From Candidatus Fermentibacterota bacterium (GTDB taxonomy: Bacteria > JAFGKV01): a DNA stretch of 7,031 nt. A program made the position numbers and the translations under genes. The stretch lies in contig JAFGKV010000262.1 of assembly GCA_016928395.1 (NCBI GenBank), forward strand, positions 1-7,031, read 5' to 3'. Shown piece after piece: positions 121-4,528 of this stretch (position 1 is its first letter; the number at the start of each line of letters is the position of its first letter). The notes beneath the pieces are model-generated. The model did no database searches and had not been told where the DNA came from. It saw nothing but the letters and a program-made list of their open reading frames with translations.

Positions 121-149
121 TTGACAAGGCTCGATCCCTTGCATAGACT
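121..149 (+). promoter_or_regulatory. Sigma-70-type promoter of the precursor gene
   Basis: A perfect -35 hexamer TTGACA (121-126) is followed after exactly 17 bases by TAGACT (144-149), which matches TATAAT at four of six positions. Transcription would start near 156, giving a leader of about 140 bases before the precursor ATG at 296. The spacing and the -35 box are seen directly; use as a promoter is inferred. It is the best promoter-like site I found upstream of the cassette and could drive the precursor alone or the whole set. Confidence 0.5.
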
Positions 150-295: not shown

Positions 296-577
296 ATGGG
301 CAAGTACGAATCGCCAATTCTTATCCCCTTAGGGGAGATGGCCAAAGGGTCTGGACTCTGTGAAACGGGAAGCTCAGTTGCGCCGGTGACCTGCACGGTC
401 GGTGATGCCGATGCGGCGGTGCTTGATTGCACCGCTGGCTATACTGCAACGCAGGACTGCAGCGCGGGCCCCACAGCAACTCGCGATTGCACTGCCGGCA
501 CTGCCGCACTCAATGCGTGCACTGCGGGTACCGATGCGATAGCGGCGTGCACGGACGGCACTGCTGACACACCGTAG
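296..577 (+). CDS. Putative RiPP precursor with tandem Cys-Thr-Ala-Gly repeats
   Basis: This 93-residue peptide has two parts. The leader-like N-terminus (about 1-20) runs MGKYESPILIPLGEMAKGSG and is the likely docking site for the PqqD-type protein encoded downstream. From Cys22 it becomes a low-complexity array with cysteines at 22, 33, 45, 55, 65, 75 and 85. The last five are exactly ten residues apart, in the pattern C-[T/S]-[A/D]-G-x-x-A. Phe, Trp and His are absent, while Ala, Thr, Gly and Asp dominate, which is unlike an ordinary folded enzyme. The GSG at 18-20 is a plausible cleavage point before the first Cys. It has its own promoter-like site and RBS, and lies upstream of a radical SAM maturation cassette whose precursor I do not know to be defined. 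The precursor role is inferred from composition and context. A thioether-bridged (sactipeptide or ranthipeptide-like) product is possible but unproven. Confidence 0.72.
   Translation: MGKYESPILIPLGEMAKGSGLCETGSSVAPVTCTVGDADAAVLDCTAGYTATQDCSAGPTATRDCTAGTAALNACTAGTDAIAACTDGTADTP
428..574 (+). repeat. Five-unit 30-base coding repeat (Cys motif)
   Basis: Units begin at 428, 458, 488, 518 and 548, each with a TGC codon, and the last is 27 bases before the stop. Each encodes C-[T/S]-[A/D]-G followed by six variable residues. The DNA differs clearly between units while Cys and Gly stay fixed, which suggests old duplication with selection on the protein motif rather than recent slippage. Two looser units start at Cys22 and Cys33 with 11- and 12-residue spacing. 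Confidence 0.85.
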
Positions 578-1266: not shown

Positions 1267-1554
1267 ATGATTCAAACGGACAGACCGATCGCCAATCCCG
1301 TCGTTGTGCTCCGGGAGGAGTTCGCCGACTGGGCCGTGCTCTTCAATCCCGATACGGCCTATGCTGCAGGAACCAATCCTGTCGGTGTCGCAGTATGGAA
1401 ACTGATGGACGGTAAGAGAAGTCTCGACGATATCGTGTCGGAGATCCAGAACAGCTTTGAAGACACTCCGGACGCCGCCTTCAAAGAGATCGCCGCCTTC
1501 GTCAACACGCTCGCTGAGAACGGTTTTGTGGGGTTCGAGGTGGAGAACCAATAG
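1267..1554 (+). CDS. scmD: PqqD-family RiPP recognition protein ScmD
   Basis: The 95-residue product has the size and pattern of PqqD-like RiPP recognition elements. An N-terminal beta region (about 12-35, including VVLREEFADWAVLFNPDT) is followed by three predicted helices: 38-48 (NPVGVAVWKLMDG), 52-64 (RSLDDIVSEIQN) and 70-86 (AAFKEIAAFVNTLAENGF). Proteins of this family bind the precursor leader and deliver it to a radical SAM partner; they have no catalytic residues of their own. Here the natural ligand is the leader of the repeat peptide encoded at 296-577. The gene is followed after 14 bases by the scmE relic and then by scmF, as expected for one operon. The family call is firm. The Scm assignment rests on its partners, above all the highly characteristic ScmF. 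Confidence 0.88.
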   Translation: MIQTDRPIANPVVVLREEFADWAVLFNPDTAYAAGTNPVGVAVWKLMDGKRSLDDIVSEIQNSFEDTPDAAFKEIAAFVNTLAENGFVGFEVENQ

Positions 1555-1806: not shown

Positions 1807-2880
1807 ATGCCGACGCTCAATACCCTGTATTTCTACCTGACCGAAGGGTGTAACCTCGCATGTCGCCATTGTTGGATGGGGCCCCAGTTCCACGCCACAG
1901 GCAATCACTATCCCACCTTGCCGGTTGAATTATACGAGACGGCCATCCGTGAAGCTAGGCCGTTGGGGCTGAGTGGAGTCAAACTCACCGGCGGCGAGCC
2001 GTTGTTGCATCCCCACTTTGCCCGTTTGCTGGAGATTGTCCAGCGTGAAGAGTTGAAGCTGACGGTCGAGACCAACGGTCTGCTGTGCACGCCGGAGATT
2101 GCCGCTGAGATCGCCAAATCTCACAAACGATTCGTATCCGTCAGTATCGACGGAACCGACGCCGCGACCCACGAATGGGTGCGCGGTGTGCCGGGATCCT
2201 TCGAAGCGGCTCGACAGGCGGTGCGCAACCTTGTGGCCGCCGGCATCAGGCCGCAGGTCATCTTCACGGTGATGCGCAAAAATGCCGCGCAGGTGGACGC
2301 CATGGTGCGAATGGTCGCGGAACTGGGTGCGGGCTCGCTCAAGTTCAACGTGGTGCAGCCCACCGCCCGAGGCGAGAAGTTGCATGAAGACCAGGAGACC
2401 CTGTACATCGGCGACCTCATCGAGTTGGGGCGGCATGTGGAGCAGGAACTGGCGCCGAGGACCACGTTGAAGGTCTTCTTTCATTACCCACCTGCTTTTA
2501 GAGCCCTGCATCGCATCGCCGGCGGGGATGGGTGTGGTGCCTGTGGTATTTTCGGCATCCTGGGCGTCATCGCCAGCGGACACTATGCCCTGTGCGGCAT
2601 CGGCCAGCAGGTGCCGGAACTGGTCTTCGGCGAGGTGGGGAAGGACTCGTTAGAAGAGGTATGGCGAGAAAATGCCACCTTGAAAGAACTGCGAGAGGGC
2701 CTGCCCGAGCGACTGGAAGGGGTCTGCAGTCGCTGCCTGATGAAGAGGCGCTGCAGGGGCTCATGCATTGCTCAGAACTACTACAGCAAGGGCAGCCTGT
2801 GGGCGCCATACTGGTTCTGTGAACAGGCGGAAGAGGCGGGTCTCTTCCCACCTTCACGTGTGGGGACACGACCCGCATAG
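1807..2880 (+). CDS. scmF: Radical SAM/SPASM peptide maturase ScmF
   Basis: This is an intact 357-residue radical SAM enzyme. Cys15, Cys19 and Cys22 in CNLACRHC hold the SAM-cleaving [4Fe-4S] cluster. GGEP at 62-65 binds the SAM amino group. The C-terminal SPASM domain keeps a full cysteine set at 243, 246, 263, 307, 310, 316, 320 and 338, including the family signatures GxxxxC (258-263) and CxxCx5CxxxC (307-320), enough for two auxiliary iron-sulfur clusters. The stretches SCIAQNYY and LWAPYWFCE and the ending GLFPPSR are as I recall them in ScmF proteins. Such enzymes modify peptides by radical chemistry, often thioether or carbon crosslinks; the likely substrate is the Cys-repeat peptide upstream. 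The ATG at 1807 lies six bases after the scmE relic stop with no clear RBS, suggesting coupled translation. The exact chemistry cannot be read from the sequence. Confidence 0.93.
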   Translation: MPTLNTLYFYLTEGCNLACRHCWMGPQFHATGNHYPTLPVELYETAIREARPLGLSGVKLTGGEPLLHPHFARLLEIVQREELKLTVETNGLLCTPEIAAEIAKSHKRFVSVSIDGTDAATHEWVRGVPGSFEAARQAVRNLVAAGIRPQVIFTVMRKNAAQVDAMVRMVAELGAGSLKFNVVQPTARGEKLHEDQETLYIGDLIELGRHVEQELAPRTTLKVFFHYPPAFRALHRIAGGDGCGACGIFGILGVIASGHYALCGIGQQVPELVFGEVGKDSLEEVWRENATLKELREGLPERLEGVCSRCLMKRRCRGSCIAQNYYSKGSLWAPYWFCEQAEEAGLFPPSRVGTRPA

Positions 2881-2902: not shown

Positions 2903-4528
2903 ATGCCTATTCAGACTGACAGCGGGAGCATCCCCGGCGCCGTGTTCTTCGCCGCCTATGCTGGCCCCAGCATGAATCCGACTCTGCGCGAGCCGGAGAT
3001 CATGGAGATCCTGCCCTATGACACCAGGCCCCTGCGTGTGGGCGATGTGGTTCTGTTTCTGTCACCGGAGGCTCATCAGCCGGTCGTACATCGCATTGTA
3101 CGTGTGACCCCCGCAGGCATATCCACGCTCGGTGACAACAATACCCACCAGGATGAGCCTCTTCTGCATCCGAGGAGCATCAAAGGCCAGGTGGTGGCCG
3201 CGTGGCGCGGGCAGAGGCGGCGGAAGATCGCCGGCGGGCTGCGAGGCCGGCTGACGGGCCGCTGGCTTCGTTGCCTACTCGTCCTTCGCCGTGGCGCGTC
3301 TCCTCTGCTCTATCCCCTGTATCATGCCCTGTCACGCGGGGGGTTGATCGCCTGGTTGGTCCCTGATCGATTCCGGCCGCGCGTCGTCGTCTTTCACGCC
3401 CAAGGCCGGGATCAGTTTCAGCTTCTGCTGGGCCGGCGTGTCATTGGCCGATACGATGACTACAGGCATCGATGGCAGATCCAACGGCCGTTTCACGTGC
3501 TTGTGGGGGGAAGAGCCCTTCCAAGGCAGCAGGACAAGACCCGCCTGAGCCGCCGCGTCTCGATTGAACGGCGACGAACCGTGGGCCATCCACCGACGCG
3601 GGAAGTATGGCATAGCCTGGCTTTGGCTGATGGGAGTCATTGGACAATTGCCGCCGGGGATGAGGAAGCCGCATCCATCGTCGCACAACTGGGATGCGCG
3701 ATGCAGTTGCCCAAGACCACGGGCGAAACGGAACCTTTTCAGCACAGTAATCCCTGCCGACTTGTCGTCACGGTGGACGCTCACACGTCCGTGGCGGATT
3801 GTTATGTCCCGTTGGCATCTGGGAACGACGGCGTCGTTGCCTGCATTCTGAGTCCATGCGACAGCTGGGGCGGCCCATACGTCAATCTGGTGAGACTATC
3901 GCTCATCTTTGCTCGCGAGGCGCAGGCCCGCGGAGGAGTCCTCATACACGGTGCGCTTGCTGAACGGGATGGCAACGGCGTGATCCTGGTTGGGCCGGGC
4001 GGGACGGGAAAGACCACTGCCAGCAATCGCCTTCCGGCCCCGTGGCGCTCGCTGTGCGACGATACCACGCTGGTGGTGCGGGATCCGCACGGGAACTACC
4101 AGGCGCACCCCTGGCCCACCTGGAGCCGCTTCCAGGACGGGGGTCCGGGCGGCACGTGGGACGTGCAGAACGCCGTGCCTCTCAAGGGCATCTTCATTCT
4201 AGCCCAGGCGGTTGAAGATCGGGTGGAACAGGTAGGCCCCGGGCAGGCGGTCAGCCTGCTCGTGGAGGGGGTGAGACAGGCCTCGATGTTCATGCCGCTG
4301 GGCCTGTTCAGAGACGAAGTCCGCACACTGTATCTTGAAGCGTTCAACAACCTTTGCGCCTTGGCCCGGATCGTACCTGCGCACATGCTTCACATCAGTC
4401 TGACCGGCCCCTTCTGGCAAGAGATTGAGCGGGCGCCTAAGGGAGACACGCGTGCGGAAACGCAGGAAACGAGCGTCAAAAACCAACCAGAATCAAAGCT
4501 CCGGAGCGTCGAAAGCGGGAGCGGATAG
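2903..4528 (+). CDS. scmC: Fusion of S26-type peptidase and ScmC/HPr-kinase-like protein
   Basis: The 541-residue product has two parts. Residues about 1-205 carry S26 signal peptidase signatures: GPSMNPTL with nucleophile Ser23, GDVVLF at 47-52, VVHRIV with His63 as the probable general base, and GDNN at 77-80 followed by Asp84. A His in place of Lys is the SipW/ER-type Ser-His version. No clear membrane anchor precedes Ser23, so a cytoplasmic leader protease is plausible. Residues about 230-515 resemble ScmC and HPr kinases: IHG at 348-350, Walker A GPGGTGKTT at 364-372, DD at 386-387 and HPWPTWS at 402-408. HPr-kinase homologues in some lasso-peptide clusters phosphorylate peptides, so Ser/Thr phosphorylation of the core is possible. 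The tail after 515 is charged and looks disordered. The frame is open back to 2768, overlapping scmF, but 2903 is the first ATG after it and gives the full S26 motif. No RBS is clear. The peptidase-kinase fusion is, to my knowledge, unusual. Confidence 0.85.
   Translation: MPIQTDSGSIPGAVFFAAYAGPSMNPTLREPEIMEILPYDTRPLRVGDVVLFLSPEAHQPVVHRIVRVTPAGISTLGDNNTHQDEPLLHPRSIKGQVVAAWRGQRRRKIAGGLRGRLTGRWLRCLLVLRRGASPLLYPLYHALSRGGLIAWLVPDRFRPRVVVFHAQGRDQFQLLLGRRVIGRYDDYRHRWQIQRPFHVLVGGRALPRQQDKTRLSRRVSIERRRTVGHPPTREVWHSLALADGSHWTIAAGDEEAASIVAQLGCAMQLPKTTGETEPFQHSNPCRLVVTVDAHTSVADCYVPLASGNDGVVACILSPCDSWGGPYVNLVRLSLIFAREAQARGGVLIHGALAERDGNGVILVGPGGTGKTTASNRLPAPWRSLCDDTTLVVRDPHGNYQAHPWPTWSRFQDGGPGGTWDVQNAVPLKGIFILAQAVEDRVEQVGPGQAVSLLVEGVRQASMFMPLGLFRDEVRTLYLEAFNNLCALARIVPAHMLHISLTGPFWQEIERAPKGDTRAETQETSVKNQPESKLRSVESGSG

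Follow-up and report, generated by a model that had tools for sequence, protein, structure and literature searches.

A conserved peptide of C-x-x-G repeats is very probably the precursor of a SynChlorMet cassette with radical SAM enzymes

The window analysed in this work is a whole contig of 7,031 bases, part of an assembly of 4.8 Mb in 343 contigs. The following features were located in it.

121..149, plus strand: sigma-70-like promoter match 5' of scmA (TTGACA-17-TAGACT), weak, a consensus match only
296..577, plus strand: scmA, precursor peptide of 93 residues (MGKYESPILIPLGEMAKGSGLC...) with seven C-x-x-G units; assigned from the ORF, a TIGR04252 match, homologues and purifying selection
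305..331, plus strand: candidate leader recognition motif Y-x-x-P ... L (Y4, P7, L12; YESP), from conservation in 66 relatives
359..559, plus strand: seven C-x-x-G units, with Cys codons at 359, 392, 428, 458, 488, 518 and 548, from translation and shuffles
1267..1554, plus strand: scmD, PqqD-type RRE of 95 residues; TIGR04248 101.1 bits (cut-off 100), PF05402 52.8 bits
1555..1800, plus strand: scmE pseudogene, with a remnant at 1597-1770 (CDLPCRYC and about 60 residues) covering TIGR04250 positions 9-66
1807..2880, plus strand: scmF, radical SAM/SPASM enzyme of 357 residues; TIGR04251 533.6 bits (cut-off 400)
2903..3382, plus strand: S26 domain (archaeal-type signal peptidase I) at the N-terminus of the ScmC fusion protein, a candidate leader peptidase; TIGR02228 40.7 bits (cut-off of 51.85 not reached)
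3893..4435, plus strand: ScmC region, candidate HprK-like P-loop kinase (GPGGTGKTT, CDDTTLVV); TIGR04249 178.2 bits (cut-off 125)
3' of 2903-4528, minus strand: glycosyltransferase-like membrane protein, followed by the end of a Fis-type regulator

An Rfam search of the window gave no match, a consensus scan of positions 1-1600 returned two promoter-like matches against 0.3 expected, and no terminator was found between scmA and scmD. The set and order of the genes match those of other SynChlorMet cassettes (TIGR04252 ScmA, TIGR04248 ScmD, TIGR04250 ScmE, TIGR04251 ScmF, TIGR04249 ScmC), and ScmD, ScmF and ScmC of the window score above the cut-offs of their models. The window differs in a ScmA that scores under its cut-off, in the reduction of ScmE to a remnant and in the fusion of ScmC with a signal peptidase, which is common to its close relatives. 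The ScmE remnant and the signal-peptidase-like domain are additions to the initial annotation of this DNA.

The peptide encoded at 296-577 had been singled out in that annotation for its seven cysteines, the last five at exact ten-residue spacing in a C-[T/S]-x-G context, and for its place upstream of the ScmD, ScmF and ScmC genes. Translation confirms the count and the spacing, with Cys at residues 22, 33, 45, 55, 65, 75 and 85 (spacings 11, 12, 10, 10, 10 and 10), and the gene order is as described (ScmD at 1267-1554, ScmF at 1807-2880, ScmC within 2903-4528). The C-x-x-G context is also present, and it is wider than had been claimed, as all seven Cys stand in it (in order CETG, CTVG, CTAG, CSAG, CTAG, CTAG and CTDG). 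Seven C-x-x-G units did not arise in any of 200,000 shuffles of the core, and four equal successive Cys spacings arose in them with a frequency of 0.0004. Comparison with seven relatives gave dN of 0.21-0.41 and dS of 0.65-1.54, and when the repeat units are compared with each other the third codon position usually carries the most differences. The ORF is coding and under purifying selection. A Pfam search of the precursor gave no match. Recent tandem duplication was considered as the sole cause of the repeat and dropped, since one unit departs from another in 9-13 of its 27 bases. The 14 bases at 591-604, just past the scmA stop, exactly repeat those at 484-497 within a repeat unit, in another frame, and are perhaps what is left of an extra unit.

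The view that the Scm cassette lacked a defined precursor was wrong, as NCBIfam already names TIGR04252 SCM_precur_ScmA. The scmA product matches this model over positions 1-47 of 49 with 29.2 bits and an E-value of 8e-7, and the cut-off of 35 is not reached. The model looks narrow, because just 9 of the 66 ScmF-linked relatives match it at an E-value of 0.01 or better; over whole genomes it returns mostly sub-threshold noise, and a profile built from the alignment of the 66 relatives performs far better. We claim membership of the peptide in the SynChlorMet cassette, not in the TIGR04252 equivalog.

These relatives come from the loci of ScmF homologues. When 84,980 species genomes were scanned with four aligned ScmF sequences, 80 loci were obtained, and those with distant radical SAM relatives and no cassette (L099-L102 and L104) were left out. 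According to the records the hosts belong to Desulfobacterota/Deltaproteobacteria, Aminicenantes, Nitrospirae, Verrucomicrobia, Chloroflexota, KSB1, Bacteroidetes, Methanothrix and others. A strict detector, demanding a Y/W-x-x-P leader, at least three C-x-x-G and at least half of the Cys within C-x-x-G, found ScmA at 57 of the 76 loci with a true ScmF; on Markov-shuffled loci it gave 0 or 1 matches against 67 on the real ones. A looser search added ScmA at about six further loci, including one at a contig end (L037). Several of the loci where the strict detector finds nothing are cut by contig ends, and at three (L045, L053 and L058) no clear ScmA was detected. At L045 two D-E-F clusters of opposite orientation share one contig, and the precursor there may be of a different type. 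The closest relatives of the window's peptide (L025, L026, L027, L033 and L034) combine a leader of the KYE-x-P-I-L-V-P-L-G-E-M-A-K-G-S-G type with ten-residue CTAG units, and ScmA was also found on a contig of a genome of the same genus (G001).

The association extends to the presence and absence of the two genes in whole genomes. In an even sample of 395 genomes from the phylum to which strain NaphS2 belongs, ScmF occurs in 27 and the ScmA profile matches in 30, with both in 25, ScmF only in 2 and ScmA only in 5 (Fisher 2e-32); the loci behind the profile had themselves been located by way of ScmF, and one of them (NaphS2) is inside this sample. Most of the pairs are on the same contig within a few kilobases. 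Three of the seven discordant genomes are explained: one with ScmF only has ScmA-like ORFs (G279), and two with ScmA only have ScmF fragments beside it (G268 and G039). Similar short ORFs, which the initial annotation proposed to look for beside other scmF genes, are thus present next to most of them. The ORF at 296-577 is coding, conserved and linked to ScmF, and its role as precursor and substrate of the Scm cassette, strongly supported by the 57 of 76 loci and by the co-occurrence, is in our opinion almost certain. That the ORF is a chance frame, or encodes some low-complexity protein of another kind, might be suspected from the simple composition, rich in Ala, Thr and Gly, and from the TIGR04252 score under the cut-off. 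This reading is refuted by the purifying selection, the homologues at many loci in conserved synteny and the ScmA/ScmF co-occurrence, and its probability is negligible.

Across the family, Gly follows Cys at +3 for 85% of 353 Cys in ORFs picked without requiring Gly, and at every other offset it reaches 33% at most. In the strict set, which was chosen partly by C-x-x-G, the figure is 313 of 347 (90%) against 78 expected by shuffling. Positions that played no part in the selection are conserved too: Leu eight residues after the leader Tyr in 82% of the 66 relatives, Gly two residues before the first Cys in 70% of the relatives, Ser/Thr directly after the first C-x-x-G in 73% of first units and Ala at +6 (C-x-x-G-x-x-A) in 66% of middle units. 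The number of Cys per precursor varies from 3 to 10 and their spacing lies for the most part between 9 and 12 residues, most often at 10, while Gly at +3 holds across the family; the exact ten-residue spacing is therefore a trait of the subgroup and C-x-x-G the trait of the family. This family rule is testable, and we did not find it stated elsewhere. A literature search found no paper on CXXG repeats in RiPPs, and none of the open-access papers searched names SynChlorMet or its TIGR numbers; both may have been treated in work published elsewhere.

Such a variable number of Cys, unlike a fixed site, speaks against the idea that the repeats form a metal- or cofactor-binding scaffold with free C-x-x-G thiols, ScmF and ScmE acting just on leader-proximal residues. 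The regular Cys spacing and the composition rich in Gly, Ala and Thr would suit thiolate ligands. The Cys, however, are not paired into CxxC-type sites, and the cassette has two SPASM enzymes, the RiPP relatives of which act on core Cys, so that we regard the scaffold as very improbable.

The radical SAM enzyme of the window, ScmF, carries a CxxxCxxC motif at C15, C19 and C22 and SPASM Cys at C246, C263, C307, C310, C316, C320 and C338, all invariant in 25 homologues; these motifs are those of a maturase with radical SAM and SPASM clusters, as in sactipeptides. The nearest structures to its AF2 model (pLDDT 90.6) are SuiB, CteB and SkfB (Z 26.5-27.5, rmsd 2.8-3.4), of which CteB and SkfB are sactisynthases, with the anaerobic sulfatase maturase just behind (Z 25-25.5, rmsd 3.4). 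The predicted fold is compatible with crosslinking as well as with oxidation of Cys. The proximity of the sulfatase maturase would suit an oxidation of each Cys with no crosslink, for example to formylglycine as these maturases do, giving a multi-aldehyde or single-residue-modified repeat peptide, and the C-x-A pattern is common (Ala at +2 in 23%). The motif of anaerobic sulfatase maturases is C-x-[P/A]-x-R, and it is not kept in the family alignment, where +2 varies and no Arg is kept at +4, which makes Cys oxidation an improbable outcome.

No intact ScmE, the second radical SAM enzyme of the cassette, is present in the window. The remnant keeps 58 of 358 TIGR04250 positions, its 5' reading frame is broken with an in-frame stop upstream, and about 900 nt have been deleted near 1770-1782, a jump of that size being recovered by blastn of the remnant against L025, L026, L041 and L098; L025 and L026 are close relatives in which scmE is intact. 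ScmA, ScmD and ScmF are intact. Since ScmE is broken, this copy of the cassette may be in decay or may depend on a locus elsewhere. The C-terminus of a ScmE at a contig edge in the same genome (L015, contig C308) makes help in trans possible. At a further locus of that genome (L014) and at L073, ScmD adjoins ScmF with no ScmE between them and the C-x-x-G precursors are kept, which weakly suggests that ScmF suffices for the C-x-x-G unit. Co-expression of the precursor with ScmD and ScmF alone might nevertheless fail, because the full cassette normally also has ScmE.

In the protein encoded by 2903-4528 the S26 domain has S23, H63 and D78, invariant in 9 homologues; its best PDB match by sequence is SEC11, and a standalone homologue reaches 52.8 bits against TIGR02228, above the cut-off. 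The kinase part had no PDB match by sequence, and the likeness of ScmC to HprK is weak, being drawn from sub-threshold profile matches (23 bits of the ScmC region against HprK_rel_A; E 2e-5 of the Methanothrix ScmC against the HPr kinase model TIGR00679). The predicted model of the fusion (pLDDT 31) was not used. S26 genes belong to most Scm loci; they are fused to ScmC in the window and at L025, L027-L031, L033 and L036, and at most other loci the two are separate genes.

The LPP RiPPs of Bacillota offer a close parallel, with a Y-x-x-P leader, a discrete RRE, an archaeal-type signal peptidase with a Ser/His/Asp triad and an HprK-like kinase (PMC13381572). Their signal peptidase is the RRE-dependent leader peptidase and needs S29, H68 and D93, to which S23, H63 and D78 of the window correspond, and their kinase phosphorylates Ser3 of the core (PMC13381572). 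This parallel makes an S26 leader peptidase and a ScmC kinase the natural reading; by analogy, the peptidase role seems fairly likely, and for phosphorylation of Ser/Thr by ScmC the chances appear even. The core set described for the LPP systems contains neither radical SAM enzymes nor C-x-x-G repeats (PMC13381572), whereas in Scm one or two SPASM enzymes are present; of that set the window holds the RRE, the signal peptidase and, by weak assignment, the kinase, with the radical SAM enzymes as an extra. The systems differ also in the NTP transferase, none of which was seen in Scm, and the precursor of the window lacks the consensus YxxPxVLxHQxIxFETxxS of LPP leaders. The [Y/W]xxP motif itself is common to lasso and LPP leaders (PMC13381572). 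Paeninodin-type lasso peptides share with Scm this leader with an RRE and employ an HPr-kinase homologue as a tailoring enzyme (PMC8498205). They differ in using a macrolactam cyclase and a B2 protease, neither of which was found among the window proteins scanned, where Scm has radical SAM enzymes instead.

The following scheme would unite these observations. ScmD, to judge by its PqqD-type RRE homology, would bind the YESP/YxxP leader and present the peptide to ScmF, plus ScmE where present, which by homology would act on every C-x-x-G unit. The leader would be removed by the S26 part of the ScmC fusion, with a cut close to the Gly-rich junction that precedes the first Cys, and the HprK-like ScmC would phosphorylate Ser/Thr, the best candidate being the conserved residue after the first C-x-x-G. 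We offer the whole mechanism as the best explanation and give it an even chance of being right. That each C-x-x-G is a site of radical SAM modification is likely, and one crosslink per scmA unit is plausible.

Concerning the chemistry, the resemblance to sactipeptides seen here lies in the Cys/Gly pattern, the seven invariant SPASM Cys and the likeness of the predicted fold. In Ala, too, sactipeptides have acceptors, as in ruminococcin C, which together with the frequent Ala of middle units and with the ranthipeptide maturase PapB, a distant sequence relative of ScmF, would speak for larger rings. The precursor role would be the same, and the sulfur would be joined elsewhere in the ten-residue unit, to Ala +6 or to a beta or gamma carbon as in ranthipeptides, with Gly +3 just permitting a turn. 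In first units, however, +6 is mostly not Ala (Pro, Val or Ala), and Gly +3 accompanies 85-90% of all Cys; we consider larger rings rather unlikely. The leading guess is a thioether from the Cys sulfur to the alpha-carbon of Gly +3, because that Gly is near-invariant and because streptosactin has alpha-thioether bonds Cys31-Gly34 and Cys25-Ser28 (PMC8172795). The expected product would be a string of separate four-residue rings, with 2 Da lost per unit, and its formation should depend on Gly. By this analogy the Cys-Gly thioether is a tentative proposal, to which we give somewhat less than an even chance, as Gly +3 may instead serve to shape a turn or in recognition and not as the acceptor. 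The ladder or solenoid product imagined earlier is not favoured, the invariant partner Gly +3 pointing to small separate rings. Streptosactin would be like ScmA in the linkage of Cys to Gly +3, the separate small rings and the radical SAM enzyme, and differs in having two rings in a 14-mer, the enzyme GggB and no set of RRE, kinase and signal peptidase (PMC8172795).

The Scm cassette has hitherto been a group of named, uncharacterised protein families. It represents a widespread pathway of anaerobes, with hosts mostly in uncultured metagenome lineages and including some archaea. The scmA product is almost certainly the precursor of this known but uncharacterised cassette, and a precursor fixed across at least 57 loci, with a near-invariant rule, brings what was an open annotation within reach of a simple test by mass spectrometry. 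Scm joins radical SAM modification of Cys repeats to the signal-peptidase/HprK-kinase toolkit of LPP, a combination not found in the literature searched. Scm products might even form a RiPP class spread widely over archaea and bacteria, with a single radical SAM enzyme travelling along the repeat array and making a four-residue Cys-Gly thioether ring at each C-x-x-G, and with Ser/Thr phosphorylation and cleavage by a signal peptidase-kinase fusion in addition; this is a speculative extension that we think unlikely to hold in full.

The precursors are also diverse within single genomes and loci. The genome of the window has two further Scm loci, L014 (G000:C88) and L015 (G000:C308), with different ScmA peptides. 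A full cassette at L120 is accompanied by long ScmA-like ORFs (7324-7701 and 8572-9306) that have additional Cys, in CCSTG and similar motifs, and the ScmA profile misses both ORFs. Several ScmA genes may stand at one locus, as at L064 (four in 7935-9008), L056 (five in 6314-7511) and L061 (three), where the leaders are similar and the cores differ.
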